Origin: Bacteroidota bacterium
GTDB lineage: Bacteria; Bacteroidota; Bacteroidia; B-17B0; Aurantibacillaceae
Assembly: GCA_963169355.1 (NCBI GenBank)
Contig: CAUJCR010000002.1
Span: 248,001 to 312,000, forward strand
Reading direction: 5' to 3'
DNA: 64,000 bases
Within the stretch, counting starts at the first letter, position 1, and the number at the start of each line of letters is the position of its first letter. The notes beneath the pieces were generated by a model, which was not told where the DNA came from, made no database searches, and saw only the letters and a list, made by a program, of their open reading frames with translations. The position numbers and the translations under genes are program-made. Below are positions 9,803 through 60,105 of the stretch, in pieces.

Positions 9803-9876
9803 TCCTTCTTAGCTCAGCTGGTTAGAGCACATGACTGTTAATCATGGGGTCCCTGGTTCGAGCCCAGGAGAGGGAG
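9803..9876 (+). tRNA. tRNA-Asn (GTT)
   Basis: The full cloverleaf can be drawn. Acceptor arms TCCTTCT (9803-9809) and AGAGGGA (9869-9875) pair over seven positions, the D arm is GCTC...GAGC, the anticodon stem CATGA/TCATG encloses loop CTGTTAA with anticodon GTT at 9837-9839, and the T arm is CCTGG/CCAGG. The discriminator base is G9876. The full CCA is not encoded. Confidence 0.96.
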
Positions 9877-9879
9877 CAA

Positions 9880-9907
9880 AAGCCACCAAAGTCGGGTGGC
9901 TTTTTTA
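9880..9907 (+). terminator. rho-independent terminator after tRNA-Asn
   Basis: GCCACC and GGGTGGC form a stem with a short loop, followed directly by six T residues. It begins 4 bp after the tRNA. tRNA-Arg, 36 bp further on, therefore probably needs read-through or its own promoter. Confidence 0.8.
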
Positions 9908-9942
9908 TTTTACAGCAGATTATTATTATTTTTACCTCCACT

Positions 9943-10014
9943 GGCACCGTAGTTCAATGGATAGAATAGACGTTTCCTAAACGTTTGATGTAGGTTCGAT
10001 TCCTACCGGAGCTA
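9943..10014 (+). tRNA. tRNA-Arg (CCT) with imperfect acceptor stem
   Basis: The cloverleaf has D arm GTTC...GAAT, anticodon stem GACGT/ACGTT with loop TTCCTAA (anticodon CCT), and T arm GTAGG/CCTAC around TTCGATT. The acceptor arms are GGCACCG and CGGAGCT: five Watson-Crick pairs, a G-T wobble at 1-72, and an A-A mismatch at 4-69 (bases 9946 and 10010). Discriminator A10014. Probably functional, but the 3' half may have been exchanged (see findings). Confidence 0.88.
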
Positions 10015-10574
10015 CAATTTTTTTAAGAATTGTCGGTAGGAATCTGCTATCACACTTGCTCGCTCAATTATGCACTGCATAATTGCCGCCTACCGGAGAA
10101 AACAAGAAAATTTCTTTTACGATACTTTTTTCGGAAAAAGTATCCAAAACCGTTTTATTTTTCGGAAGGATATTTTTGTTTTCTGTGCACTTTCCTCCGT
10201 CAAACAAAACCGCCGATTCAAAAATCCCACAAAGCGCTCATGCCCGCCCTTCGATTTTCTCACGGCTATATCTGCGAAAAATAAAAGTCAACGCACTCAA
10301 AAGCCTGTGTGTTGGGCTACACGTTATGCTATTCTAGTTAGCGCTATGGTATTTTAAAATGTTGTGTAAAAATCAAATATTATCAAATGCGTTAGGATGC
10401 GCGAAGATTGTTCGGGCTGTTCACGAAGCGATTCGAACAATCGGATTGAGACTATGATGATTTTAGCAAGATTTTAAGGAGCCTTGATTTTTTGTAACTT
10501 TCTATATCAAGACAAAAGAAATGAAGGAAATTTCTTTTACAAAAAAATCAGCTACCACACTTACTCGCTACAAT
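10015..10574. repeat. non-coding repeat-rich region after tRNA-Arg
   Basis: No convincing gene: the overlapping short frames here have no recognisable protein character. The DNA is structured instead. It holds an inverted copy of the tRNA-Arg 3' end (10034-10043), a direct copy of CCTACCGGAG from the tRNA (10089-10098), a perfect palindrome AATTATGCACTGCATAATT (10066-10084), a long inverted repeat GATTGTTCG/CGAACAATC (10406-10414 and 10434-10442), and imperfect direct repeats near both ends (10046-10064 against 10551-10569; 10105-10120 against 10524-10540). It reads as remains of a mobile or repeat element at a tRNA gene, or a structured RNA. Confidence 0.55.
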
Positions 10575-11279
10575 TTATGAAACACAAAGCCTTGCCTGCC
10601 AATACTCAAATTCTTTCCATTCGCCTGTATCCATTTTAAATTCGTAACTAATTTTACTGATGTCAGATATTTTAAAATCAATTTTTGTTTTAAAAATATT
10701 ACCGTCATAAGAAAAAGTGTGGTATTCGCCATTTTCGCCACACACATCTACATTGGGTGGTAGTGCTTTTACAAGCGTCGCATCCAAATCTCTCCCTACA
10801 AAAGTTTGGTCGAGTTTGTCGGCTTGAGTAACTATAATTTTAGATTTAATACCTGATTTTAAAAACTCCTCAAAAATTTCTGGTGAAGATTTTCCCCACA
10901 ATGGTTCTACTACTTCTATACCAATAGGATTGAGTTTACTTTCTCGATACGACTTTACATCTGCTAAAAAAATATCGCCAAAAATAAAATGATGTGCTCC
11001 TTTGTTTTTAAAGTATTGTACCGCTTCTGTCATCCCTTCTTCGTATGTTTTTGTATTCTTAGAAAGGGCTACTGTATAAAGCGGAATACCAATGCTTTCA
11101 GCTTGTTTTTTTAATAACTCAACAGGAATTGAATGAATAGAAGAGGTTTGTGTATCATCATTAATGGTTGTCAGTAATGATATGACCTCGTATTCATTAT
11201 CTTGAATAACTTTATAAAGTGCCAATGCAGAATCTTTTCCACCACTCCAATTAAATACTGCTTTTTTTCTTTGGTTCAT
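10575..11279 (-). CDS. Dph6-like ATP-pyrophosphatase (diphthine-ammonia ligase family)
   Basis: 234 residues. The N-terminal PP-loop FNWSGGKDSALALYKV (about 9-24) binds ATP and adenylates the substrate, and the C-terminal GENGEYHTF motif is the second family hallmark. In eukaryotes and archaea Dph6 amidates diphthine on EF2. Bacteria have no diphthamide, so the bacterial substrate is not known and the family name should not be taken as function. The last codons lie against the repeat region, so the C-terminus may have been altered by it. Confidence 0.85.
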   Translation of the reverse strand: MNQRKKAVFNWSGGKDSALALYKVIQDNEYEVISLLTTINDDTQTSSIHSIPVELLKKQAESIGIPLYTVALSKNTKTYEEGMTEAVQYFKNKGAHHFIFGDIFLADVKSYRESKLNPIGIEVVEPLWGKSSPEIFEEFLKSGIKSKIIVTQADKLDQTFVGRDLDATLVKALPPNVDVCGENGEYHTFSYDGNIFKTKIDFKISDISKISYEFKMDTGEWKEFEYWQARLCVS

Positions 11280-11300: not shown

Positions 11301-12308
11301 CTACTTTATTTTATTCAAGGCTTTAAAGGCTGCTTTTTCTAATGCTGCAATTTCATCAAGCATATCGGCACTTTGAAGAAAATCTTTTTGCTCGTTTAAC
11401 CTCCCTTTAAAAATACGTCCCATTGTAATAGCCGCTTCGCGCCACATATCTCCTATTTTGGTAAACTCGTCTGACAGTACTAAGAATTTTTCGTTGGGAA
11501 TATATTCGTATGCTTGTTCTAAAAATGCAGCATATATAAATCTAAAACCTCCACCACCAGTTCCAATTTCTTCTTGCATCCGCACAATCTGCCCCATGAA
11601 CAACCCCGCCTTTCTTTGCCCAAGGGCATCTCTCCACTTTCGCATTTGGCGCGCAGTATAATTAATGCCAGACACCCCTACAATTGGTCCTGGCAAATGC
11701 AACATCTCGAACGAAGTGCGCTTAATGCCTTTTAATATTGCTTTTTGGATTTGTTCTTTGCTTACTGGTTTAATATGTTCAGGAAAATAAACATGTCCCT
11801 TTGGAGCTAGTGGCCCTTTAGCAAACCTTACCTTTTCCATATCTGCTTCTGTGAGCGTTGTAAATGTTTCCATCACAGGGTCACTTACTAAATAGTGTCC
11901 ATTCTCTTTTCCAAATACCACTATGTTATGCGCATTAAAATGAAAACGATACTCGCTCGGAAAATACGGTAAATTAAATACACCTACTTGGCAACCTACA
12001 GGATTTCCTTTTTCAATTTGATGATTGAGATACTCGTAAGCATCTTTTTCGTTACTAAATTTTTTACGCTTTACTTTTATACCTAATGCTTTACTGGTTC
12101 TACTAAAAATCCAACCCGGCATACTCCGATATGAAACTGCTGGACCTCCATTTACCATTAAGAAAGGAATATGGATATAAAATATACCAGAGCCAATACC
12201 AAACATTAAAGGTTCGGTCATAAAATCTAAGCCATGATATTTTAAAAGTCCGGTGGCAACACCATTTTCACAATGAGCTGTTTGAATATGCTGATACGAA
12301 CTTTTCAA
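11301..12308 (-). CDS. BtrH-like acyltransferase (BtrH N-terminal and DUF4872 type)
   Basis: 335 residues. The N-terminus (HCENGVATGLLKYHG) matches the BtrH N-terminal domain. Cys13, His127 (FNAHNIVVFG) and Asp143 (YLVSDP) are spaced like the Cys-His-Asp triad of papain/C39-fold enzymes. The C-terminal half is helical, as in DUF4872. BtrH in butirosin biosynthesis transfers an acyl side chain from an acyl carrier protein to an amine. Here the gene follows a ketosynthase III and a small protein with a 1 bp gap, so a thioester-to-amine acyl transfer in a small biosynthetic operon is a reasonable inference. No signal peptide, so cytoplasmic. Confidence 0.75.
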   Translation of the reverse strand: MKSSYQHIQTAHCENGVATGLLKYHGLDFMTEPLMFGIGSGIFYIHIPFLMVNGGPAVSYRSMPGWIFSRTSKALGIKVKRKKFSNEKDAYEYLNHQIEKGNPVGCQVGVFNLPYFPSEYRFHFNAHNIVVFGKENGHYLVSDPVMETFTTLTEADMEKVRFAKGPLAPKGHVYFPEHIKPVSKEQIQKAILKGIKRTSFEMLHLPGPIVGVSGINYTARQMRKWRDALGQRKAGLFMGQIVRMQEEIGTGGGGFRFIYAAFLEQAYEYIPNEKFLVLSDEFTKIGDMWREAAITMGRIFKGRLNEQKDFLQSADMLDEIAALEKAAFKALNKIK

Positions 12309-12309
12309 A

Positions 12310-12708
12310 TTATTCTTTAAAATTTTTTAAATCATTTATGCTAATATCAAATGCTTTAGCATAAATCATTAATTTTTTATCGCTTAGTGTGTTAAATACA
12401 GAAGGCTTAAAGTGTCTTTTAATCGTCCATCTCCAAAAACCCGTATAGCTTGATAGCAATGGGATGTCCATTAATTTTAACTCCATGAAATAAACGATAG
12501 GGCTTACTTCGTTTCTTCTCACTTTTTCTAAAGCTTCCTTCACGCGCTCGTGAATATCCTCCCAAGCGTTATCTAAAGCTTGTTTTTTAACCTGCCATCC
12601 TATGCTTAAATCAGTAGTGTATTTCCCGTCTTTATCTTTCACATAACACACATCACGAGTAACACCTGTTAAAGCAGATTGATCTTGTGGTATGTCTTCT
12701 TTCTTCAT
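12310..12708 (-). CDS. 132-residue conserved-looking protein between the ketosynthase and BtrH-like genes
   Basis: No family recognised. It is hydrophilic and mostly helical, has many Lys and Glu residues, no signal peptide or membrane span, and a C-terminal helical segment (SDKKLMIYAKAFDISINDLKNF) that could be an interaction module. It is separated by 1 bp from the BtrH-like gene and 7 bp from the ketosynthase gene, so the three proteins are probably made together. Confidence 0.7.
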   Translation of the reverse strand: MKKEDIPQDQSALTGVTRDVCYVKDKDGKYTTDLSIGWQVKKQALDNAWEDIHERVKEALEKVRRNEVSPIVYFMELKLMDIPLLSSYTGFWRWTIKRHFKPSVFNTLSDKKLMIYAKAFDISINDLKNFKE

Positions 12709-12715
12709 AAGAAAA

Positions 12716-13855
12716 TCAACAAACAGTTAATAAACAGTAAGCATAAGTAAAACGGGCACTTTCGGGCACCATTAATAATATTTTTTGACCATGTTTTAAT
12801 TTACCCGAATTCATCAGTTCTTCTATCATCATAAAAATAGAGGCTGAACCAATATTGCCAACACTAGTAAGATTAGTAAACCATTTTTCTTGTGGAATAT
12901 CAATATTGTATTTCAGAATTTCTTCGGCAATTTTAGCTCTAAAAAACTCTGAAGATAAATGCGGTAAAAAATAATCGATGGTTGTAATATCAAAATTTCT
13001 TTTATCAAGTATTTCTTTTAAATACTTAGTTCCCACGGGCACAATTTCTTTTCCTAATAACTTAGTGTCTTGTTTAAATGAGAAGATAGATTTTTGTAAC
13101 CATTCATCTGGTGTAAAATCTTTCCAGCCAGTGGTAGTTCCATCGTTATTTTTTTCGGCACCTACATACATGCAAGTGTCTAGTTGATTTGCATACGATT
13201 TAATATCTATCCACTCAATTTTTAAATTAATACTATTAGGTCGGGGTGCATCTTGCATTAATAAAGCCGCCGCACCATCAGATAACATCCATCTTAAAAA
13301 ATCTTTTTCAAATGCAATAATAGGATGTTGTTCTAAAGCAGCCAACTGTTCTGTTTCTTTCTCAAAATTATGTGCTAACATAAATTTTGAAAGCTTTTCT
13401 GAACCGCTCACCACGGCATTTCTGGTATTACCTGCTAGTATCGATAGGTAACCAGCTTTTAACGATTGCATACTGGCACAACAAGAGCCAGCAGGAGAAA
13501 TAAGTTCGAGTGCTTGACTTTCTTTTAACTCGCCATGCACCATCACTGTGTGAGAAGGCATGTGATTATCGGGCGATGCTGTACCACAAGCTAACCATTC
13601 AATATCACTCACTTTAAATGTAGCATCTTCTAATTGCCTAATTGCAATTGCTGCCATTTGAGCATTAGAGTGTGTGGAGTTGCCATTTTTATCAATAGCA
13701 TAGTAGCGAGTTTTGATACCGTTATTACGTAGGGTTAATCGTTTTCCTTTTGAAGGCACGCCGTCAATCATTCCTAAATACTCTTCCATCTCATCATTTG
13801 AAACAGGATGATTAGGTAAGAATTTAGCCGATTTTGTGATATAAACCCCTTGCAT
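12716..13855 (-). CDS. 3-oxoacyl-ACP synthase III family ketosynthase
   Basis: 379 residues of thiolase fold. The FabH-type triad is visible: Cys126 within AGSCCASMQSLKAGY, His299 within DYFLPHLSSEFF, and Asn334 within SVGNIGSASI. It is about 55 residues longer than housekeeping FabH and resembles secondary-metabolism KAS III enzymes such as DarB of dialkylresorcinol/flexirubin clusters. It is the first gene of the three-gene operon with the BtrH-like protein. No acyl carrier protein gene is adjacent, so an ACP must come from elsewhere. The substrate cannot be told. Confidence 0.82.
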   Translation of the reverse strand: MQGVYITKSAKFLPNHPVSNDEMEEYLGMIDGVPSKGKRLTLRNNGIKTRYYAIDKNGNSTHSNAQMAAIAIRQLEDATFKVSDIEWLACGTASPDNHMPSHTVMVHGELKESQALELISPAGSCCASMQSLKAGYLSILAGNTRNAVVSGSEKLSKFMLAHNFEKETEQLAALEQHPIIAFEKDFLRWMLSDGAAALLMQDAPRPNSINLKIEWIDIKSYANQLDTCMYVGAEKNNDGTTTGWKDFTPDEWLQKSIFSFKQDTKLLGKEIVPVGTKYLKEILDKRNFDITTIDYFLPHLSSEFFRAKIAEEILKYNIDIPQEKWFTNLTSVGNIGSASIFMMIEELMNSGKLKHGQKILLMVPESARFTYAYCLLTVC

Positions 13856-13905: not shown

Positions 13906-15246
13906 TTATTCATTAATACCAAAAAACTCATTGTAACTCACTTCTTTGGTTTCTAATTTACAAGTATTTTTTAATAAATCAAGCACTTTTTTGCTATATA
14001 AATTTTCGAAGATATTTTGTGCTTCTTTTTCTTTCGCTAAAATACCATCTACAATTTTTGCTACTTCTTGGTCATCTGGCGATTGACCATAACGTGCAAA
14101 TTGAGAGCGCACAAATCTTGCAGCTTCTTCTTTTGCTTCGTCTAAAGTAACTGTAATGCTATTGTCTTTAATAATTTTATTTTCAATAAGTTTCCATTGC
14201 ATCGAACGAGCATAAGCTGGGTACTCTGCCTCTAATTGTTCTTGAGTAATTGGTTTTTCGTTCACTGCCATTAACCAACGCTTTAAAAACTCGTCTGGAA
14301 GAGTAATGTTTAATTTTTCTACTAATGTTTTTTCAACGGTTTCAATAAATTTACGATCCGTGTCTTGTGTAAACATAAGTGCTAATTCTTCTTTAATTTT
14401 AGCTCTAAACTCTTCTACTGAGTTTATCTTACCAGCACCATAAAGTTTATCAAATAATTCTTGGTTTAACTCAGCTTCCTCCATACGAGCAATGTTACGC
14501 ACAGTAAGTTGTAAGTTAGAGTTAAAAGACTCTGCTAGTGTTTTATCAATTCCTAACGATACTGATTTGTCAATTGCTGAATCATATAAATCGTTGGCAT
14601 TTAAAATAATTTTATCTTCTTTTTTGGCGCCAATTAATTTTGATTTAGCAGCTTCGTTTTTTAGGCGGTCGATACCAATGCTAGTAGATTTAAAAATACC
14701 ACCTGCTACAATATTGTTTTCGGCATCTAATTCTACAATATCAATATACAATACATCTTTTGCATCTGCTACTTCGGGGTTAGATGGTTTACCATAGTTA
14801 CGTTTTACATCTACTAAATATTTATCCACTAAAGCATCATCAATTTTTACGGTATTGTAAGTAAACGTTTGAGAATTATCTAACTTAATATCAAATTGTG
14901 GAGATAAGCCTAACTCGTAGTTAAACGTCCATTCTTTTTGATTTTCAAAATCTATCGTATTATCCACTTTAGGCATAGGATTACCTAAGATTTCGATTTT
15001 ATTTTCATTAATATAGTTATACAATGCATCATTAAGTATTTTATTTACCTCATCTACTAAAATGGATTTGCCGTATTGCTTTTTAATTAATCCAACAGGC
15101 ACTTTACCTGGACGAAACCCTGGCATACTCGCTTGTTTTTGAACTTTTTTAATAGCTAAATCTACTTTCGATTCGTAATCTTGTGGCGCTAACGATATAC
15201 TTAATTCAGCATTTAATGCGTTAATGTCTTTCTTTGAGATATTCAT
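13906..15246 (-). CDS. tig: trigger factor
   Basis: 446 residues. The ribosome-binding signature MPGFRPGKVP at 41-50 identifies the N-terminal domain. A divergent FKBP-like middle region (about 145-245) and a long helical C-terminal chaperone domain follow. Trigger factor binds L23 at the ribosome exit and holds nascent chains. The length is normal for Bacteroidota, where the prolyl-isomerase residues are often degenerate, as they appear here. Confidence 0.95.
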   Translation of the reverse strand: MNISKKDINALNAELSISLAPQDYESKVDLAIKKVQKQASMPGFRPGKVPVGLIKKQYGKSILVDEVNKILNDALYNYINENKIEILGNPMPKVDNTIDFENQKEWTFNYELGLSPQFDIKLDNSQTFTYNTVKIDDALVDKYLVDVKRNYGKPSNPEVADAKDVLYIDIVELDAENNIVAGGIFKSTSIGIDRLKNEAAKSKLIGAKKEDKIILNANDLYDSAIDKSVSLGIDKTLAESFNSNLQLTVRNIARMEEAELNQELFDKLYGAGKINSVEEFRAKIKEELALMFTQDTDRKFIETVEKTLVEKLNITLPDEFLKRWLMAVNEKPITQEQLEAEYPAYARSMQWKLIENKIIKDNSITVTLDEAKEEAARFVRSQFARYGQSPDDQEVAKIVDGILAKEKEAQNIFENLYSKKVLDLLKNTCKLETKEVSYNEFFGINE

Positions 15247-29614: not shown

Positions 29615-30358
29615 TTAGCTATTGCTACCTTTTTCCAATTCAATACTTTTTGGAAATAATATATTATTTTCTAGATGAATGTGTTGATGTAAATCATTCT
29701 CAAACTCTTCTAATTTATGATACGCTAACTTATAGGTTGTACAAGCCCCAACTGGAGCTTTATAATCATTCGAAAGTTCTTTAATGGTTTTAAAAATATT
29801 GCCAACAAGTTCGTGCTCATCTTCCATCATCTGAATAGGTGTTTTAATAGTGCCAAAACTTGTAGTAGCATTTTGATTGGTTGTAGGACTATTAACTAAC
29901 TCTTTAATATATGGAAACAACACATTTTCTTCTTTAATGATATGAGCGCTCAGTTCATTAGCCGCTTGCATAAACAACTCGTTTATCGTTACTAATTCAA
30001 TATGTTCTTCGCCATGCACTTTGGCTACCTTATTAATATATTCCGTAATTAATGGTAAGTTTTTTTTAACATACTGGTGATGCGTGTTGATGATATAATC
30101 TATTAAAAAATCTAATTTCCACTCATTAAAATTTTGAGCATTAGAGTTAGTGCCCGAATTATAAATATTTAATTCTGCTATCAGCTCATCAACAGTAACT
30201 GTTTTGTTTTTGCAAACTTGGTTTAATGTTTTTTTTCCTCCACAACAAAAATCAATGTGGTGTTTCTTAAACACATCCGCTTTTCCTAAGTTTAAAGTTA
30301 CTATTTCTCCTACAGTGGTATCACCTGTAATTACAATATTCCCCGCGTTCATAATCAT
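29615..30358 (-). CDS. ric: iron-sulfur cluster repair di-iron protein (Ric/ScdA/YtfE)
   Basis: 247 residues. The N-terminal ScdA_N domain contains the CC pair in HIDFCCGGKKTL. A hemerythrin-like four-helix domain follows, with His and Glu iron ligands in HHQYVKKN, HIIKEENVLFP, MEDEHELVG and HIHLENNILFP. The protein restores Fe-S clusters damaged by nitric oxide or oxidants in the cytoplasm. It is cotranscribed with the upstream thioredoxin-like gene (21 bp gap), and a Crp/Fnr-like palindrome lies before that gene, fitting NO control. Confidence 0.93.
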   Translation of the reverse strand: MIMNAGNIVITGDTTVGEIVTLNLGKADVFKKHHIDFCCGGKKTLNQVCKNKTVTVDELIAELNIYNSGTNSNAQNFNEWKLDFLIDYIINTHHQYVKKNLPLITEYINKVAKVHGEEHIELVTINELFMQAANELSAHIIKEENVLFPYIKELVNSPTTNQNATTSFGTIKTPIQMMEDEHELVGNIFKTIKELSNDYKAPVGACTTYKLAYHKLEEFENDLHQHIHLENNILFPKSIELEKGSNS

Positions 30359-33858: not shown

Positions 33859-35241
33859 ATGAGTGAAAAGATGAAAACCCTAACAGAACCATTTAAGATA
33901 AAAATGGTAGAACCCTTAAGAGTAACAACTGAGGAGTATAGAAAAGATGTATTAAAAAAAGCAGGTTATAATCCGTTTTTAATTAGTTCCAAAGATGTAT
34001 TTATTGATTTTTTAACGGATAGTGGAACGGGCGCTATGAGCGACAAGCAATGGTCGGGCATTATGATGGGTGATGAAAGTTATGCTGGTGCTAGAAGCTG
34101 GGAGCACTTAGAACGAGTTGTAAAAGATTTAACTGGTATGCCTTATATCTTACCCACACATCAAGGGCGTGCAGCCGAACGAATTTTATATGGCATATTA
34201 GGAGGAAAAGATAAAATATTTATTAGCAACACTCACTTTGACACAACGCGTGCTAATATTGAATACACTGGGGCTACAGCTATAGATATTATATATGATG
34301 AGGCTAAAAATCCTGAGAACGACTTACCATTTAAAGGTAATATAGATTTAATAAAACTCGAACAATTAATCGCAGAACATGGCAAGGAGAATGTTGCTGC
34401 AATTGTAATGACTGTAACAAATAACTCCTCTGGCGGGCAACCGGTTAGCATGGAAAACATGTTAGCTGTTCGAAAAATTTGTGATTCGTATCAAATACCG
34501 ATGGTGATTGATGGTTGCAGGATTGCCGAGAACGCTTACTTTGTGAAGCATCGTGAAGCAGGATTTGCAAATAAATCTTGTGAAGATATTGCCAAACAAA
34601 TGTTGCGCTTAGGTGATGCGTTTGTAATGAGTGCAAAAAAAGACGGTATGGTAAATATGGGTGGTTTATTAACCGTTAAAGACGAAGCGCTTTCTGTAAA
34701 ATGTAAAAATCTTTTAATCATCTCCGAAGGGTTTACTACTTATGGTGGTTTATCAGGACGTGATATGGAAGCTTTAGCCATTGGATTAACCGAAGTGTTT
34801 GATGAAGATTATTTACATTATAGAATTAGAAGCACCGCATATTTAGGAGAAAAATTAAAAGCAAAAGGTGTTCCTGTGGTGTGGCCAATTGGTGGACACG
34901 CTGTTTATGTTGATGCTAAAAAACTATACAATCAAATTCCAGTTAATGAGTATCCAGGACAAGCCTTGGTGTGTGATTTATACATCAAAGGCGGCATTAG
35001 AGCAGTAGAAATAGGTAGTTTAATGTTTGGTAAATATGATGAGAAAGGGGCACTTATTCCTGCCACCAATGAACTTGTAAGATTAGCCATTCCACGAAGG
35101 GTTTATACTCAAAGTCATATTGATTATGTGTTAGACATTTTTGATGACATACTAGAATTAAGAAACCAAACCAAAGGGTATAAAATAACGTATGAACCGC
35201 CGTTTTTAAGGCACTTTACAGCAAGATTAGATAAAATATAA
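33859..35241 (+). CDS. tnaA: tryptophanase (tryptophan indole-lyase)
   Basis: 460 residues of the PLP-dependent beta-eliminating lyase family. The PLP lysine is Lys261 in SAKKDGMVNMGG. Two positions that separate tryptophanase from tyrosine phenol-lyase point to tryptophanase: Asp128 in HFDTTR (Asp137 in E. coli TnaA, Thr124 in TPL) and Ile385 in RAVEIGS (Val in TnaA, Arg381 in TPL). The expected reaction is tryptophan to indole, pyruvate and ammonia. No tnaC leader or TnaB permease is seen. Tyrosine phenol-lyase follows 38 bp downstream. Confidence 0.9.
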   Translation: MSEKMKTLTEPFKIKMVEPLRVTTEEYRKDVLKKAGYNPFLISSKDVFIDFLTDSGTGAMSDKQWSGIMMGDESYAGARSWEHLERVVKDLTGMPYILPTHQGRAAERILYGILGGKDKIFISNTHFDTTRANIEYTGATAIDIIYDEAKNPENDLPFKGNIDLIKLEQLIAEHGKENVAAIVMTVTNNSSGGQPVSMENMLAVRKICDSYQIPMVIDGCRIAENAYFVKHREAGFANKSCEDIAKQMLRLGDAFVMSAKKDGMVNMGGLLTVKDEALSVKCKNLLIISEGFTTYGGLSGRDMEALAIGLTEVFDEDYLHYRIRSTAYLGEKLKAKGVPVVWPIGGHAVYVDAKKLYNQIPVNEYPGQALVCDLYIKGGIRAVEIGSLMFGKYDEKGALIPATNELVRLAIPRRVYTQSHIDYVLDIFDDILELRNQTKGYKITYEPPFLRHFTARLDKI

Positions 35242-35279
35242 TCGTTTTAAATTAACTCGTATAATAAAAAAAAAGAGAT

Positions 35280-36665
35280 ATGAAAACAATAAAAAAACGC
35301 TCATGGGCTGAGCCTTACAAAATGAAGATGGTAGAACTTCTTAAAATGACTACCGAAAAACAACGTTTAAAAGCTATTAAAGATGCAGGTTACAATACTT
35401 TTTTATTACCATCAGCCGATGTATATATTGATTTGTTGACAGATAGTGGTACTAACTCTATGAGCGACCGCCAGTGGAGTGCCTTTATGACTGGCGATGA
35501 AGCCTATGCAGGTAGTAAAAGTTATTACATCTTAGAAGAAACCATTCAAAAATATTATGGTTATAAATATGTAGTTCCTACACACCAAGGCAGAGCAGCC
35601 GAAAACATCTTATCTCAAATCTTAATTAAAAAAGGAGATATTGTTCCAGGCAACATGTACTTTACTACAACCCGTTTACATCAAGAATTAGCAGGTGGTA
35701 TTTTTGCTGATGTTATTATTGATGAAGCACACGATCCATTAAGCGAACATCCTTTTAAAGGAAATGTAGATATTGCTAAACTTGATAAATTGGTAAAAAA
35801 ACATGGTGCTAAAAAAATTCCTTACGTGTGTGTAGCCACTAATGTAAACATGGCTGGCGGACAACCAGTAAGTATGGAAAATCTTAAAGAATTAAGAGCT
35901 TATACTAAAAAACACGGCATAAGAATTATTCATGATATGACACGTGTTGCTGAAAACGCATTTTTTATTCAGCAACGTGAAAAAGGATACGCTAAAAAAA
36001 CAATAGCTCAAATAGTTAAAGAAATTTGTTCTTATACCGATGGTGCCACAATGAGCGCCAAAAAAGATGCTCTTGTAAATATAGGTGGATTTATGGCAAT
36101 TAATGATTGGGACGTGTTTGAAGAAGCCAGAAACTTAGTAGTAGTGTATGAAGGATTACATACTTATGGCGGATTAGCTGGTCGTGATATGGAAGCAGTA
36201 GCAGTGGGAATTGTTGAGAGTTTAAATGACGACCATCAAAAAGCACGTGTTGGTCAAGTAGAGTACCTTGGTCATAAAATGATGGAATACAATATTCCAA
36301 TTGTAAAACCAATTGGTGGGCACGGTATTTTTGTTGATGCAAAAGCATTTTTACCTCATCTTACTCAAGACCAATTTCCAGCACAAACTTTAGCTGCTGA
36401 ACTTTATGTAGATTCTGGAGTAAGAACTATGGAGCGTGGTATTGTATCCGCAGGAAGAAAACCAAATGGCGAAAACTATTATCCAAAACTTGAATTGGTA
36501 CGATTTACAATTCCAAGACGGGTTTATACACAAGCGCACATGGATGTAATTGCTGAATCTGCCGCTGCAGTTTATGAAAGAAGAAAATCCATTAAAGGTT
36601 TAAAGATGGTTTATGAACCTAAGTATCTACGTTTCTTCCAAGCTCGATTTGAAAAACTGAAATAA
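35280..36665 (+). CDS. tpl: tyrosine phenol-lyase
   Basis: 461 residues, alignable throughout with Citrobacter TPL as I recall it. PLP Lys262 lies in SAKKDALVNIGG. Thr129 (YFTTTR) and Arg386 (RTMERGI) are at the positions of TPL Thr124 and Arg381, the latter needed for phenol-ring specificity. The reaction is tyrosine to phenol, pyruvate and ammonia, and is reversible. It arose by duplication with the adjacent tryptophanase. Having both genes in one operon is uncommon as far as I know. Confidence 0.92.
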   Translation: MKTIKKRSWAEPYKMKMVELLKMTTEKQRLKAIKDAGYNTFLLPSADVYIDLLTDSGTNSMSDRQWSAFMTGDEAYAGSKSYYILEETIQKYYGYKYVVPTHQGRAAENILSQILIKKGDIVPGNMYFTTTRLHQELAGGIFADVIIDEAHDPLSEHPFKGNVDIAKLDKLVKKHGAKKIPYVCVATNVNMAGGQPVSMENLKELRAYTKKHGIRIIHDMTRVAENAFFIQQREKGYAKKTIAQIVKEICSYTDGATMSAKKDALVNIGGFMAINDWDVFEEARNLVVVYEGLHTYGGLAGRDMEAVAVGIVESLNDDHQKARVGQVEYLGHKMMEYNIPIVKPIGGHGIFVDAKAFLPHLTQDQFPAQTLAAELYVDSGVRTMERGIVSAGRKPNGENYYPKLELVRFTIPRRVYTQAHMDVIAESAAAVYERRKSIKGLKMVYEPKYLRFFQARFEKLK

Positions 36666-36690: not shown

Positions 36691-37113
36691 ATGAAATTAA
36701 AAGCTCGACATACTTTTTTTATTCTTAGTGCTTTATTTTTAATCTATTCAGTTAGTATCTATTTAAAACCTTTGTCGGTAAATACTGATGATAGATTTGA
36801 CAAAACAGCTGCAGCTAATGGTAAATTAGTTTGGCAAAAATATAATTGTCAAGCCTGTCATCAGTTTTATGGCCTTGGTGGATACCTTGGTCCCGACTTA
36901 ACAAACATTTTATCTCAGCCCGGGAAAGGTGAAGCACTTGTAAAAGCTATGCTAAAAACAGGAACCAAACAAATGCCCGCTTTTCAATTATCCGAAAAAG
37001 AAACGCAAGAATTAATAGAGTTTTTAAAATCAACCGACGCTAGTGGCAGCGCAGATCCTAGAAATTTTGAAAATACAAACTTTGGAATGATTGAACGATA
37101 TGAAACTAAATAA
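36691..37113 (+). CDS. membrane-anchored cytochrome c, NorC-like
   Basis: 140 residues. An N-terminal membrane helix (about 8-26) is followed by one cytochrome c domain with heme motif CQACH (Cys53, Cys56, His57) and probable axial Met95 (KQMPAF). The layout and length match NorC, the small subunit of cytochrome-c-dependent nitric oxide reductase. Its 3' end overlaps the NorB-like gene, so the two are translationally linked and very likely form one complex in the inner membrane. Confidence 0.87.
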   Translation: MKLKARHTFFILSALFLIYSVSIYLKPLSVNTDDRFDKTAAANGKLVWQKYNCQACHQFYGLGGYLGPDLTNILSQPGKGEALVKAMLKTGTKQMPAFQLSEKETQELIEFLKSTDASGSADPRNFENTNFGMIERYETK

Positions 37114-38425
37114 ACTACATATTGGAAATCTTTTTCTAGTTACAGCCATTATCATGTTGCTTTTGGGCTTAGGTTTTGGGTTACTAGCTGCGTTTATTTA
37201 TTTGTATCCAAACTTTTTAAAAGATTCTATTGGTTTTATCTCATTAAGACCTCTTCATGTTTCTTCAGCAATGTTTTGGATTATCTTAGGCGCAACTGGA
37301 TGCGTATATAATGGATTAAGAGTTGTAACCAACAAGCCTATAACAAATCGAGTAGCTATTATGCAATGGCTATTATGGATCATTTCAATCATTGGTATTT
37401 TTATTTCGTATTTCACCCATCAATTTGGAGGCAGAGAATACTGGGAGTTCAATCCAGTGTGGGCATTACCTATTGCCATAGCTTGGTTATTATTCTTAAG
37501 TAATTTTTATAGTCATATAAACAATGTACGCAAATGGCCTGTGTATATGTGGATGTGGCTCACTGGCTTAACTTTTTTCTTATTTACTTTTATAGAAAAT
37601 TACCTTTGGCTGTTCCCTTATTTTAGAGAGCATTTTATAACCGATATGACCATTCAATGGAAAGTAAATGGTTCGTTAGTTGGTTCATGGAATCAAATGA
37701 TTTATGGCACAGCATTTTTCTTAATGGACAGAATTTCAGGAACTAAAAAAGTAGGAAAAAACAACTTAGCATTTGCCATGTATTTTTTAGGGTTATTTAA
37801 TTTAATGTTTAATTGGGGTCATCACATCTATACACTTCCAACCGAAAAATACATTCGCTATATAGGCTATATAGTGAGTATGACAGAGTGGGTTTTCTTT
37901 GTTAAAATTATTTATAACTGGAAAGGAGCTGTAAGCGACATACAAAAACACTATCACTATTTCCCTTACAAATTTATAATGGCATCCGATATTTGGGTGT
38001 TTATAAATATGGGACAAGCTTGTTTATTCTCAATACCAGCTATTAATATCTACACGCATGGCACACATGTAACCGTAGCTCATGCAATGGGCACTACCAT
38101 AGGAATAAATACTATGATTTTACTAGCCGCTTGTTTTGAGTTTTTAAAACCCGACTTGTACAAAGAAACTTCTCTCAAAGCACTAAATAGAGTGTTTTGG
38201 TTTTTACAAATAAGCCTCGTGGTTTTTTGGACATCATTAAATATAGCAGGTATCAAAAAAGGACTTTGGCAACTCAGCAATCCTCAATCAAGTTATAGTA
38301 AAATGATGGACTCGCTTGAACCTTATTTTATAACATTTATTATAGCAGGTTTTGGTTTGTTTGTTTCGCTAAGCATTATTGCTTATAAATTACTCAAGCA
38401 TTCTAAAAAAAGTATTTTTAATTAA
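37091..38425 (+). CDS. divergent NorB-like heme-copper oxidoreductase subunit
   Basis: 444 residues, about 12 membrane helices. Compared with Pseudomonas cNOR as remembered, spacing is nearly exact: His56 (heme b), His244 and His245 (FeB), Glu266 (Glu280) and His331 (heme b3) are kept. But the first FeB ligand is Asn193 (His207 in cNOR), the catalytic Glu211 is Val197, Glu215 is Asn201, and the second heme b ligand is Met333 (His349; HAM instead of HGH). It belongs to the NOR branch of heme-copper oxidases, but NO reduction is not assured. An in-frame ATG three codons in could also be the start. Overlaps the cytochrome c gene. Confidence 0.8.
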   Translation: MNDMKLNKLHIGNLFLVTAIIMLLLGLGFGLLAAFIYLYPNFLKDSIGFISLRPLHVSSAMFWIILGATGCVYNGLRVVTNKPITNRVAIMQWLLWIISIIGIFISYFTHQFGGREYWEFNPVWALPIAIAWLLFLSNFYSHINNVRKWPVYMWMWLTGLTFFLFTFIENYLWLFPYFREHFITDMTIQWKVNGSLVGSWNQMIYGTAFFLMDRISGTKKVGKNNLAFAMYFLGLFNLMFNWGHHIYTLPTEKYIRYIGYIVSMTEWVFFVKIIYNWKGAVSDIQKHYHYFPYKFIMASDIWVFINMGQACLFSIPAINIYTHGTHVTVAHAMGTTIGINTMILLAACFEFLKPDLYKETSLKALNRVFWFLQISLVVFWTSLNIAGIKKGLWQLSNPQSSYSKMMDSLEPYFITFIIAGFGLFVSLSIIAYKLLKHSKKSIFN

Positions 38426-55601: not shown

Positions 55602-55655
55602 CTACCCTATTTTTAATGCGGTCATTGTTAATGAACCTGCCATGGCTTTATTATC
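55602..55655 (-). pseudogene. 3' remnant of a DODA-type dioxygenase gene
   Basis: On the minus strand the fragment translates to DNKAMAGSLTMTALKIG followed by TAG, nearly the same as the last residues of the intact dioxygenase at 60133-61020 (NDKAMAGSLTMTSLKIG). It runs directly into the stop of the TPR-phosphatase gene. It marks a duplication or recombination breakpoint. Confidence 0.7.
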
Positions 55656-58101
55656 ACACTCTCACCCCAATTACCGTTACATCATCTACTTGTTCTACAT
55701 CTTTTTTCCAATTGGCAAAGGTAGTTTCAAGTAATTGTTTTTGTTCGTTCATTGGTAAATGAGCGTTAGCAGCTAATAATTCACGTAACTTTTTACTCAT
55801 AAATTTTTTGCCCTTTTCTCCACCAAACTGGTCAGGAAAGCCATCGGTTAAGGTGTAAATTACATCGCCTTTTTGTAGTTGTATTTCATGTAAGGTAAAA
55901 GGAATATCTTGTTTATCGTGTTTACCAACGGGCATTTTATCGGGTTTTATTTCTATAACTTCATTGTGTGGGCTGAGCGAAGTCGAAGCCCGCACTATCC
56001 ACACAGGATTGTTGGCTGCGGCAATTTGCAATACATTATTTTCTTTATTAAATACTAATAAACTACAATCCATTCCGTCTTTTCCACCTTCGGCACTGCC
56101 GTCTTTTTTTAATCTATCTATAATAATTGTACGTGTTTTATTTAAAATTAAATGTGGTGCTGTTTCTGTTTCTATTGCTTTTTCCAAACTTGTGATGTTT
56201 AACAAACTCATAATAGCTCCAGGAACACCATGACCTGTGCTATCGGCAGTGGCTAAATAAAATAAATTTGATGAGGAAGGTTTACTATTAAATGCCGTGA
56301 CTTCATTTTGATTTTTTAATTTTGAATCTTGAATCAACGAAGTTGCCGCCCAATAAAAATCACCACTCACTACATCTTTGGGTTTAAAAAACACAAAGTA
56401 TTCGTTTAAATTAGCATCAAGCAATTCTTTGGTTGCCAGAAAACTGCGTTGAATACGTTCTGCATAATTAATGGAATCAGTAATTTCTTTGTGTTTTTCC
56501 TCAACTAAATGTTTTTGGGTTTCAATTATAGCTTTTTGTTTATTGGTTATTCTTAAGCGGTTATACACAAACACTGCAAACAAAAGTACTAATACCAAAC
56601 CACCGTAAAGGGCATATTGCTGGTTTCGTTTGGCTTTTATTTCTGCTTTTTGTTTAGCTATCTGTGCATTTTTAATTTCATTGGCTTTGGCATTGGCTAC
56701 ACTGTCTGTAGCGGCTTTTTTCTCGTAATTGTATTTAAACTCCTGTCGTATTACTTCTTTGGCGTTTTCTTCACTTTCTATACTGTCTTTCATTTGAATA
56801 TACAGCTCGTGCATTTCTAAGGCTTCTTTGTGTTTACCCAATTTTTTATTAATTTCCCATAAGTTCATTGCAGCAATACGGATTTCCATAACAGCACCTA
56901 TTTCTTTAGCAAGGCTTAATGCCTGCGCAATGAACCCAATGGCTTTGATATAATTGCCTTGTTTCTTATAAATAATACCAATACTTCCAAGTGAAGTTAT
57001 TATACCTCTGTTAGCGCCAATTTCTTCATTTATTTTCAAACTACGTGTTTGATACTCAATGGCCTTAGCATAATTACCCTGATTACTATAAACATTTCCG
57101 ATGTTGTTAAGTGAAGTAGCTATATCTTGTTTACTAGCAATTTCCTCATTTATTTTTAAGCTACGAATTAAATAATTAATGGCTTCACTGTAATCACCTT
57201 TTTCCTTATAAGTAACCCCAATGTTGTTAAGTGAAAAAGCTATACCTTGTTTATTTCTAATTTCTTCATTTATTTTCAAACTTCTGGTATAATAATCAAT
57301 GGCTTTAGAATAATCGCCTTGGTTAAAATAAATATTTCCAATGTTGCTAAGTGAAGAAGCTATACCTTGTTTATTGCCAATTTCTTCCTCCATTTTTAAA
57401 CTGCGTGTTTGATACTCAATGGCTTTAGCATAATCACCTTGGTCAAAATAAATATTTCCGATGTTGCCAAGTGAAGTAGCTATACCTTTTTTATTACCAA
57501 TTTTTTCATCTATCTTCAACTTACGTGTGTGATACTCAATGGCTTTTACGTAATCGCCTTGTTTTTTATAAATATTTCCAATGTTGCCAAGTGAAACAGC
57601 TATAGCTTTTTTATCACCAATCTCTTCGTTTATTTTCAAACTGCGAGTGTGATACTCAATAGCTTTGGCGTAATCGCTTTGTTCATTATAAATTAATCCA
57701 ATATTGTTCAAAGATGCTGCTATGCCTTGTTTGTCACCAATTTCCTCTCTAATTTTTAAACTACGGGTGTAATATTCAATGGCTTTGGCGTAATCACCTC
57801 TAAAATAAAATGATATGCCTTGTGTGTTAAATGCTACTGCCATGTGTTTTTTGAGTTTTTTGCTTTTGGCAAAATTGTATTGTAATTGGGCATAATAAAA
57901 AGCACTATCGGGTTTTGTATAAAGATAGCCATCCCCTACATATTTATGAATGGCTTTCAGGCGGTTGGTGTCGGGCTGGTTTTTATCTTGCCATGCCTGC
58001 CAAAGAGAGTCAGCTACATTTGGAGGAAGATTAGGTTGGGTAAAGCCGGTTAAGGCAAAAAGTAAGGTTGATAAAAGCAGTAATAAATTAATTTTTTTCA
58101 T
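55654..58101 (-). CDS. TPR-repeat SpoIIE-type (PP2C) phosphatase
   Basis: 815 residues: signal peptide, at least nine tandem TPR repeats of exactly 40 residues (about 62-430, pattern YAKAIEYxTRSLKINEEIG), a coiled-coil region, one membrane helix (YALYGGLVLVLLFAVFVY), a second coiled coil, and a cytoplasmic SpoIIE/PP2C phosphatase (KPKDVVSGDFYWA, ADSTGHGVPGAIMS, GGKDGMDCSLLV, YTLTDGFPDQFGG). Probably a signalling phosphatase acting on an anti-sigma antagonist or similar partner. A 10-residue insertion RASTSLSPHN stems from a palindromic repeat. Paralog of the gene 15 bp upstream. Confidence 0.88.
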   Translation of the reverse strand: MKKINLLLLLSTLLFALTGFTQPNLPPNVADSLWQAWQDKNQPDTNRLKAIHKYVGDGYLYTKPDSAFYYAQLQYNFAKSKKLKKHMAVAFNTQGISFYFRGDYAKAIEYYTRSLKIREEIGDKQGIAASLNNIGLIYNEQSDYAKAIEYHTRSLKINEEIGDKKAIAVSLGNIGNIYKKQGDYVKAIEYHTRKLKIDEKIGNKKGIATSLGNIGNIYFDQGDYAKAIEYQTRSLKMEEEIGNKQGIASSLSNIGNIYFNQGDYSKAIDYYTRSLKINEEIRNKQGIAFSLNNIGVTYKEKGDYSEAINYLIRSLKINEEIASKQDIATSLNNIGNVYSNQGNYAKAIEYQTRSLKINEEIGANRGIITSLGSIGIIYKKQGNYIKAIGFIAQALSLAKEIGAVMEIRIAAMNLWEINKKLGKHKEALEMHELYIQMKDSIESEENAKEVIRQEFKYNYEKKAATDSVANAKANEIKNAQIAKQKAEIKAKRNQQYALYGGLVLVLLFAVFVYNRLRITNKQKAIIETQKHLVEEKHKEITDSINYAERIQRSFLATKELLDANLNEYFVFFKPKDVVSGDFYWAATSLIQDSKLKNQNEVTAFNSKPSSSNLFYLATADSTGHGVPGAIMSLLNITSLEKAIETETAPHLILNKTRTIIIDRLKKDGSAEGGKDGMDCSLLVFNKENNVLQIAAANNPVWIVRASTSLSPHNEVIEIKPDKMPVGKHDKQDIPFTLHEIQLQKGDVIYTLTDGFPDQFGGEKGKKFMSKKLRELLAANAHLPMNEQKQLLETTFANWKKDVEQVDDVTVIGVRV
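55970..55991. repeat. REP-like palindrome inside the phosphatase coding region, copy 1
   Basis: A 22 bp imperfect palindrome (core CTGAGCGAAGTCGAAG with GGG and CCC ends) lies in frame in the gene and encodes the RASTSLSPHN segment. The identical sequence occurs in the paralog at 58433-58454. Confidence 0.6.
56985..57835. repeat. 120 bp tandem repeats encoding TPR units
   Basis: About seven consecutive 120 bp units share long identical stretches also in DNA (for example 'caatggctttagcataatcacctt' variants and the 'ccaatgttgccaagtgaa' block), so the TPR array has expanded by recent tandem duplication. Confidence 0.7.
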
Positions 58102-58116
58102 AGTTTTCTTTATTGT

Positions 58117-60105
58117 TTAAATCCTCACCCCAATCACTGTAACATCATCTACTTGTTCAACGTCTTTTTTCCAGTTTGTAAATGTTGTTTCTAGTAATTG
58201 TTTTTGTTCATGCATTGGTAAATGTGTATTAGTAGCTAATAATTCACGTAAATTTTTACTCATAAACTTTTTGCCCCTTTCTCCGCCAAATTGGTCAGGG
58301 AAGCCATCTGTTAAGGTGTAAATTACATCGTCTTTTTGTAGTTGTATTTCGTGTAAGGTAAATGGAATTTCTTGTTTTTCGTGTTTGCCTACGGGCATTT
58401 TATCGGGTTTTATTTCTATAACTTCATTATGTGGGCTGAGCGAAGTCGAAGCCCGCACTATCCACACAGGATTATTAGCAGCCGCAATTTGTAGCAAATT
58501 ATTTTCTTTATTAAACACCAATAAACTACAATCCATGCCGTCTTTTCCACCTTCGGCACTGCCATCTCTTTTAAGTACATTAATAACTTCTTTACGGGTA
58601 CGGTTCAGTATTTCGTTTGGTAGCGTGTGCCCTTCTTTCACAGCTTCATTTAAACAGGCAATGTTTAAAATACTCATAATAGCTCCAGGAACACCATGAC
58701 CTGTGCTGTCTGCTGTTATCAATGCAAATTGATTGTTTTTTAAAGATGAGGCCCAATAGAAATCGCCACTTACTACATCTTTTGGTTTAAAAAACACAAA
58801 ATAGTCTCCTAAATTTTCATCTAGCATTTGTTTACTAGCTAATAACGAGCGTTGAATACGCTCTGCATAGTTGATACTATCTGTTATTTCTTTGTGTTTT
58901 TCTTCAACTAAAATTTTTTGGCTTTCGATAATGAGTTTTTGTTTCTGTGAAGATCGAAATCTATTAAAAATAACAATAGAAAATATAATAAGAAGTATGA
59001 GTCCAACATATAAATAATACCGCTGAGTTTGTTCTTGTTTAAATTTTAAATCATTTATCTTTCTTTCTTCTGCTATTTTTAAACTATCCGTAGTTTGCTT
59101 TTTATCAAATTCATATTTCATGATCATTCTAGTAGATTCATTTGCTAATTCACCATTTATAAGGCTGTCTTTTATTTTGGTATGAATTTCATAATAATAC
59201 AAAGCGTCTTTGTGTTTTTTTAAAGCTTTATATGCATCTACTAAATTTCCAGCCGACAACTGTATTTGCCTAGGATTCCTAATTTCATTAGAAATACGAT
59301 ATGCTTCTAGCAAATAATTTAATGCCTTTGAAGGATCTCCCATTTTATTATATATATATCCAATATTATTTAACGATAAGGTTATCCCCCTTTTGTCCTC
59401 CATTTTTTTCTCCCATTCTAATGCCTTATTATAAAACTCAAGAGCCTTTATATAATTCATTTGCTTAAGGTAAACGCTTGCAATATTACTAAAAGAGCTA
59501 GCTAGTTTTTTATTATTGCCTAGAGCTTCTCTAATTTTCATACTCCTAATAAAACAAGCCATTGCTTCTGCTGTATCGCCTTTGTCTTTATAATTTAGTC
59601 CTAAATTATTTAATGTAGAAGCAATTCCTTCTTGATTATTAATCTCTTCTCTTATCTTTAATGCTTTTTTGTTGTATTCAATAGATTTATCAATGTCTCT
59701 TTGAGTAAGATGTAAATAAGCAATATTAACAAAACAACCAGCTACACCCTCTTTATCATTATTGCTTTCTTTTACCCGAAGACTCTTATGGTAGTATTCT
59801 AATGCTTTTGAAATTTGACCTATATTTTCATAAATAAGCCCCATGTTATTTAACGATTTGCCAATATATAATTTTTGTGAAGTCTTTTGTGCCAACTCTA
59901 ACTCTTGTTGATATAATAATAAAGCGGTATCTGGTTTGTCGTACATGTATGCGTAGGCCACTTTATGCACCGCTTTTAATCGTACAGTATCTGCTAAATT
60001 TTTATTTGTAAAAACTCCTAAGAGACTATCGATGTTTTGACTAATGGTTTGTAAAGAAACCCCTAAAGAAATAATCACTATGAATTTTATTTTCCACTTC
60101 ATCAT
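58117..60105 (-). CDS. TPR-repeat SpoIIE-type (PP2C) phosphatase, paralog
   Basis: 662 residues with the same architecture: signal peptide, about six TPR units (70-320), coiled coil, one membrane helix (YYLYVGLILLIIFSIVIF) and a C-terminal PP2C domain. The last 115 residues are almost identical to those of the 815-residue protein, while the TPR parts differ clearly. This suggests gene conversion or a recent partial duplication of the 3' half. It contains the same RASTSLSPHN insertion. It starts 27 bp after the dioxygenase gene and ends 15 bp before the next paralog. Confidence 0.88.
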   Translation of the reverse strand: MMKWKIKFIVIISLGVSLQTISQNIDSLLGVFTNKNLADTVRLKAVHKVAYAYMYDKPDTALLLYQQELELAQKTSQKLYIGKSLNNMGLIYENIGQISKALEYYHKSLRVKESNNDKEGVAGCFVNIAYLHLTQRDIDKSIEYNKKALKIREEINNQEGIASTLNNLGLNYKDKGDTAEAMACFIRSMKIREALGNNKKLASSFSNIASVYLKQMNYIKALEFYNKALEWEKKMEDKRGITLSLNNIGYIYNKMGDPSKALNYLLEAYRISNEIRNPRQIQLSAGNLVDAYKALKKHKDALYYYEIHTKIKDSLINGELANESTRMIMKYEFDKKQTTDSLKIAEERKINDLKFKQEQTQRYYLYVGLILLIIFSIVIFNRFRSSQKQKLIIESQKILVEEKHKEITDSINYAERIQRSLLASKQMLDENLGDYFVFFKPKDVVSGDFYWASSLKNNQFALITADSTGHGVPGAIMSILNIACLNEAVKEGHTLPNEILNRTRKEVINVLKRDGSAEGGKDGMDCSLLVFNKENNLLQIAAANNPVWIVRASTSLSPHNEVIEIKPDKMPVGKHEKQEIPFTLHEIQLQKDDVIYTLTDGFPDQFGGERGKKFMSKNLRELLATNTHLPMHEQKQLLETTFTNWKKDVEQVDDVTVIGVRI
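58433..58454. repeat. REP-like palindrome inside the phosphatase coding region, copy 2
   Basis: Identical in sequence and reading frame to the copy at 55970-55991. Confidence 0.6.

Follow-up and report, generated by a model that had tools for sequence, protein, structure and literature searches.

A darB-darG-darH operon as a probable part of a scattered flexirubin pathway in a Bacteroidota genome, with DarH as a candidate ester-forming enzyme

The window, i.e. the whole stretch of DNA analysed (64,000 nucleotides), corresponds to C2:248001-312000 of a 61-contig, 3.2-Mb draft genome of a Bacteroidota bacterium. It contains three complete minus-strand open reading frames, darB, darG and darH, separated by 7 and 1 bp (Table 1), in agreement with the positions and spacing given in a preliminary description of the region. 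All three frames are open and the genes likely form one operon; in the flanks of the trio within the window there is no further pathway gene beside it.

Table 1. Positions of the trio, its neighbours and other candidate pathway genes in the same genome
Feature	Position	Strand	Basis or remark
darB, StlD/DarB-family ketosynthase, 379 aa	window 12716-13855	minus	NF053539, NF005293, StlD structure 5gk0
darG, conserved flexirubin/dialkylresorcinol-cluster protein, 132 aa	window 12310-12708	minus	NF053545, NF053536
darH, BtrH-type acyltransferase, 335 aa, TTG start	window 11301-12308	minus	NF053550, BtrH_N, DUF4872
Trigger factor gene	window 13906-15246		50 bp upstream of trio
Dph6-type ATPase gene	window 10575-11279		21 bp downstream of trio
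DarA	C8:152281-153183		E 1.0e-60; 36% to query DarA, 61% to another DarA
Methyltransferase, tyrosine-type lyase, KR, KS, ACP, LPLAT	C6	methyltransferase on opposite strand	reference flexirubin cluster order
Polysaccharide deacetylase-type protein, KS-like, KS, ACP, unnamed 214-aa protein (c32), KS	C55:6158-11262		
MMPL/acyltransferase/methyltransferase fusion exporter	C5:53627-57451		56% to reference-cluster protein over ~1280 aa
ABC permease	C2:186254-187519		57% to one beside DarA in related genus; ~72 kb from trio

Downstream of the operon region, genes for tRNA-Asn and tRNA-Arg (window 9803-10015) take up some of the gap, and small open reading frames at 10030-10357, which overlap in three frames, look spurious. 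Other features of the window include a tandem pair of tryptophanase-like beta-eliminating lyases (PF01212; 460 and 461 aa; 33859-36665), a small cytochrome c beside a COX1-family protein (36691-38425), possibly a nitric oxide reductase pair, a ScdA_N/hemerythrin repair-type protein (29615-30358) 6 kb from that pair, and two neighbouring TPR-SpoIIE phosphatase proteins whose C-terminal domains closely resemble each other (55654-60105).

The earlier call of a DarB-like ketosynthase holds, in that DarB exceeds the curated NCBIfam cut-offs of NF053539 (593 bits, cut-off 550) and NF005293 (572.5 bits, cut-off 450), and has as its nearest solved structure StlD of the Photorhabdus stilbene pathway, to which it is homologous over its whole length (E 1.8e-117). 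In the alignment Cys125 and His299 of DarB are in register with the catalytic Cys and His of StlD; in a second StlD entry the histidine aligned to His299 is replaced by Ala. The nucleophile, previously placed at Cys126, is thus reassigned to Cys125, both cysteines being invariant, together with His299 and Asn334, in all 20 relatives of a chosen alignment subset (20 of 23 DarB proteins). The predicted activity of DarB is condensation of two beta-ketoacyl units and ring closure, giving a 2,5-dialkylresorcinol (DAR) precursor. StlD itself makes a stilbene precursor, and neither DarG nor DarH is known to occur next to it.

Solo StlD/DarB-type ketosynthases, 45-46% identical to the window DarB, are present on plasmids of Prevotella nigrescens, Bacteroides ovatus and Phocaeicola salanitronis (L234-L236), where they directly follow a TetR/AcrR or helix-turn-helix regulator and have no annotated DarA or DarH nearby; a cyclohexanedione-type signal is a possible product. 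Five plasmid loci, from eight matches, were examined and had no annotated DarH near the DarB-like gene, the PLSDB gene tables being incomplete; among the ten organism names listed by a tblastn search of plasmids with DarH, the genera Bacteroides, Prevotella and Phocaeicola do not appear.

The 132-residue product of the middle gene, formerly treated as an unlabelled unknown, can be named DarG, since it passes the NCBIfam models NF053545 (190.7 bits, cut-off 170) and NF053536 (182.6 bits, cut-off 70). It has no Pfam match at E 1 and no clear relative among solved structures; a profile match to 4mud is weak (E 0.014), and in its predicted model (pLDDT 81) residues ~62-132 resemble, weakly, a lambda-repressor-type helical domain (Z 8.4). 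A DNA-binding role was considered but is not claimed, because the similarity of the C-terminal half to repressor-type domains reaches only Z ~8, a level that the tool calls common. DarG is a probable partner of DarH. By analogy the AziU2-AziU3 pair, judging from the titles of the structure entries, suggests itself as a model for DarG-DarH; a literature search on AziU2/U3 returned nothing relevant.

DarH scores 447 bits with NF053550 ('BtrH-related acyltransferase', cut-off 300) and comprises the Pfam domains BtrH_N and DUF4872. Its Cys13, His127 and Asp143 are where they had been described, and are invariant in 53 of 53 proteins (the window's own and 52 of 79 frames), so that in DarH, as in DarB, the catalytic residues are conserved among homologues. 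Six BtrH paralogues of greater distance in alignment A1 have an Asp one column earlier. Distant BtrH-type paralogues, 23-24% identical to DarH and without dar neighbours, also occur in several family genomes (L034, L058-L062), most with the active site motif GQHCETTATG.

The AlphaFold2 model of DarH, made with 53 sequences (pLDDT 90.0, pTM 0.88), is matched by VIA-align first to CtaG (Z 25.2, 3.2 Å over 295 residues), followed by a chain of the AziU2-U3 complex (Z 23.9) and CcbD with a carrier domain (Z 22.1), compared with Z 12.4 and lower for simple papain-like peptidases; Foldseek agrees on the fold (E 2.4e-10 to 1e-6). DarH is accordingly modelled with the whole fold of CtaG and CcbD. The CtaG entries include mutations at Cys11, His128 and Asp144, the spacing of which is near that of the DarH residues, and CcbD, from the titles of its entries, was solved together with a carrier domain. 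Donor chemistry from a carrier thioester is common to CtaG, CcbD and such relatives. A shared fold by itself would prove no function for DarH, yet a carrier-thioester donor is the theme of its modelled relatives, and DarH is predicted to be an acyl-enzyme that uses Cys13-His127-Asp143 to move an acyl group from a carrier protein.

Flexirubins are orange-yellow membrane pigments of the Bacteroidota. Of what their pathway requires, DarB and DarA, a tyrosine ammonia-lyase and a type II KS/KR/ACP set are present in the genome; together with the exporter genes they are distributed over C2, C5, C6, C8 and C55 and not in one or two clusters (Table 1). The C6 operon is 53-74% identical to a reference cluster (tyrosine-lyase 66%, KS 74%, ACP 74%), its aromatic lyase belonging to PF00221; the open reading frames on either side of DarA on C8 include no pathway neighbours. 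The preliminary description, which saw no ACP, aryl polyene or transport genes, was thus right for the immediate surroundings of the trio, but the genome has all three elsewhere. That the scattering is an artefact of contig breaks was considered and set aside, since the trio, the C6 operon and DarA are each flanked by other genes on both sides; related genomes also keep the same pathway units unlinked. Known cases tend to be clustered, but the chemistry does not require it, so scattering makes a 'flexirubin cluster' less likely, not a 'flexirubin pathway'.

A search of GTDB species genomes with the DarH alignment gave 80 loci that were kept, all with titles of Bacteroidota type. By tblastn, DarG is present in 79 of these stretches and lies directly upstream of DarH in 78; DarB is present in 76, the contiguous trio in 71, and DarA and an ABC permease lie within the fetched stretch in 68 each. 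The same adjacency in 71 of 80 named loci excludes chance. In named flexirubin clusters the trio usually sits between darA and an ABC exporter, the common order (Dyadobacter, Mucilaginibacter, Crocinitomix and others) being c9-darA-darB-darG-darH-ABC ATPase-ABC permease-ACP-KS-KS-like, with a halogenase-like gene inserted in Crocinitomix. The nine named loci lacking a contiguous trio include one at which the contig ends (L211) and one without DarB in the 8 kb upstream (L160). Separately from the named loci, DarH is apart from DarB-DarG in L041 (genome G080) and DarB is apart in L053 (genome G083). In the genus of the window DarH occurs in 15 of 20 genomes, 13 of which have trigger factor, DarB, DarG and DarH in a row; in one of the 13 (L051) a further gene is inserted, which clusters with a DUF1702 protein.

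At some loci (L051:11133-11936, L057:10942-11820, L160 and L196) a gene of DUF1702 type separates darB from darG or lies ahead of either one, often accompanied by a halogenase-like gene. Flavin-dependent halogenase-like proteins with a weak Trp_halogenase match are encoded at L033, L035, L039, L056 and L057; such a gene directly precedes darB in a sister genus, whereas many genomes of the genus of the window have it at another place, and its product is probably tied to chlorinated flexirubins. At E 1e-60 the genome studied here has no halogenase-like flavoprotein of the kind that adjoins the trio in other genera.

Presence and absence across genomes link the trio to the rest of the pathway. 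Among 87 genomes of the family, the numbers of positive genomes are 29 for DarH, 30 for DarG, 31 for DarB, 30 for DarA and 33 for the polyene KS-like protein (DarH and DarB counted over cut-off only), with all five in 29 and none in 54. Every DarH genome thus also has DarA, DarB, DarG and the KS-like protein, and the trio never occurs without DarA. Fisher tests give extreme values (3e-22 for DarA), the shared ancestry of the genomes meaning that independence is overstated. In 198 evenly drawn genomes of the phylum, DarH exceeds its cut-off in 12, and StlD/DarB does so in the same 12. Conserved co-occurrence of the three families, implicit in the preliminary view of them as one unit, is therefore borne out by contiguity and by distribution. 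Four of the five genus genomes without DarH also lack DarA, DarB and DarG, as joint loss predicts. Exceptions are a 58% complete genome with DarB and without DarG, DarH or DarA (G063), and two (G041, G007) in which a DarB-like stretch below cut-off lies in a longer frame, without over-cut-off DarG/DarH and without the polyene KS-like protein. With lyase matches taken at identities of at least 65%, two of them fragments, no tyrosine-lyase was found in G062; with exporter matches taken at at least 50%, thus leaving out G001 (38-43%), no exporter was found in G055 and G079.

The explanation that we favour, with a probability of roughly 0.8, is that the trio supplies darB, darG and darH to a known but scattered flexirubin pathway, with an ester-forming role for DarH. 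Two beta-ketoacyl intermediates would be condensed and cyclised by DarB, and DarA, whose gene stands alone on a different contig, would aromatise the resulting ring to a 2,5-dialkylresorcinol; the aryl-polyene acid would be built by a separate set of tyrosine-lyase, type II ketosynthase and ACP. DarH, aided by DarG, would receive the polyene acyl group on Cys13 from the carrier protein and pass it to a resorcinol hydroxyl, giving the flexirubin ester, which exporters would bring to the outer membrane; pigment production by the organism would be expected to follow. In a heterologous host darA and darB alone suffice for DAR (PMC3992019), which makes DarG and DarH dispensable for the resorcinol part. 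Since they nevertheless occur with the DAR-polyene set family-wide, a polyene-to-DAR transferase is the most economical reading of DarH. Flexirubins being polyene acids esterified with DAR (PMC3992019), DarH most likely joins the two by an ester and not an amide.

Counting against the favoured explanation, Schoner et al. proposed the ligase-like FlxW for joining polyene and DAR (PMC3992019), and the pathway is scattered here, unlike the classic clusters. A bolder proposal is that DarH and DarG are an obligate pair constituting the missing ester-forming enzyme of flexirubin and arcuflavin biosynthesis, a BtrH-fold enzyme with a phenolic oxygen in place of an amine as acceptor, and that the pathway in this uncultured genus works though scattered over at least six places; we consider it evenly poised between right and wrong.

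The alternative that survives best, though we regard it as rather unlikely, is that DarG and DarH serve the flexirubin pathway without making the ester, acting instead as a thioesterase, in carrier loading or unloading, or in preparation for export, with a ligase like FlxW making the join. The FlxW assignment would fit this, as would the position of the two genes, most often directly before ABC transporter genes, and the papain-like nature of BtrH_N proteins, as given in a review (PMC10318531), such folds being able to hydrolyse too. On the other hand, CtaG and CcbD share with the DarH model not only the papain-like domain but also the second helical one (Z >20, compared with ~12 for simple peptidases), and the distribution of DarG and DarH tracks DAR genes, not exporters in general.

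It is very improbable that the pathway is decaying or redirected, with the trio now making a free dialkylresorcinol or a cyclohexanedione, perhaps a signal. Scattered genes and the solo ketosynthases, without DarG/H and beside TetR-type or helix-turn-helix regulators, on Bacteroidales plasmids might be seen in this light; however, the open frames, the retention of all catalytic residues and of the polyene genes, and the joint absences within the genus argue otherwise. Least probable of all is the preliminary proposal of a self-contained minimal module that, unlike flexirubin clusters, would use the cell's ACP to make a small acylated product, probably an amide, with no relation to flexirubin: the trio does stand alone behind the trigger factor gene, here and in most DarH-positive genomes of the genus, but flexirubin-type ACPs, DarA, polyene KS/ACP operons, the tyrosine-lyase and exporters are encoded elsewhere in the genome, and DarA and the polyene KS-like protein accompany the trio in 29 of 29 DarH genomes of the family, so that a free-standing module can be dismissed.

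The trio is not a new kind of operon, and what was supposed to be a minimal novel module becomes part of a known pigment pathway. Division of such a pathway into two or three loci is also already in print (PMC3949708, PMC3992019). The novelty lies in how extremely the pathway is scattered in this genus, as a result of which cluster-based genome mining would report only fragments of the flexirubin capacity or miss it, and in a concrete, testable candidate, DarH with DarG, for the joining step earlier assigned only tentatively to FlxW (PMC3992019). In titles and abstract openings of the literature on flexirubins, their clusters, DAR and the ester we found no paper on DarG/DarH function, nor, in those on flexirubins, one on the scattered arrangement seen here, though such papers may exist.

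Among known BtrH-type enzymes, BtrH is an acyl carrier protein:aminoglycoside acyltransferase, according to a review (PMC10318531). DarH resembles BtrH, CtaG, CcbD and AziU3 (the entries for which are complexes with AziU2) in having a BtrH_N domain and, as predicted, the whole fold (Z 22-25), but the identity is only ~10-13%. These enzymes are known to use amine acceptors, whereas the expected acceptor of DarH is a phenol hydroxyl. The preliminary assignment of acyl transfer to an amine fits BtrH, but for DarH a resorcinol hydroxyl would be expected, flexirubins being esters (PMC3992019, PMC3949708).

Compared with the flexirubin systems of Chitinophaga pinensis (flx and dar) and Flavobacterium johnsoniae (a 37-kb cluster), the order of the trio matches that of the named clusters, and the genome likewise has DarA, DarB, a tyrosine ammonia-lyase, a KR, several KS and ACPs, as well as acyltransferase, deacetylase and exporter homologues. 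The gene numbers of dar in C. pinensis (Cpin_6850-6851) are far from those of its flx cluster (Cpin_1853-1877) (PMC3992019). The genes are thus at two loci in C. pinensis and at one in F. johnsoniae, whereas here they are on at least five contigs, with darA alone and the trio after a trigger factor gene. Azoarcus sp. BH72, which makes a polyene-DAR hybrid, has at one locus darA-darB-darD(hypothetical)-darE(BtrH-like)-darF(ABC) (PMC3949708); there is no physical linkage between its two polyene loci, its dar genes (azo0283-0293) forming a further set (PMC3949708). The DAR cyclase, small conserved protein and BtrH-like protein of this arcuflavin system are encoded in the same order as here, darD and darE corresponding by order to NCBIfam DarG and DarH (darG and darH of Azoarcus are other genes). 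In Azoarcus darA and the ABC ATPase gene adjoin this series, whereas in the present genome they do not; the Azoarcus polyene genes, at unlinked loci, contribute to one hybrid product.
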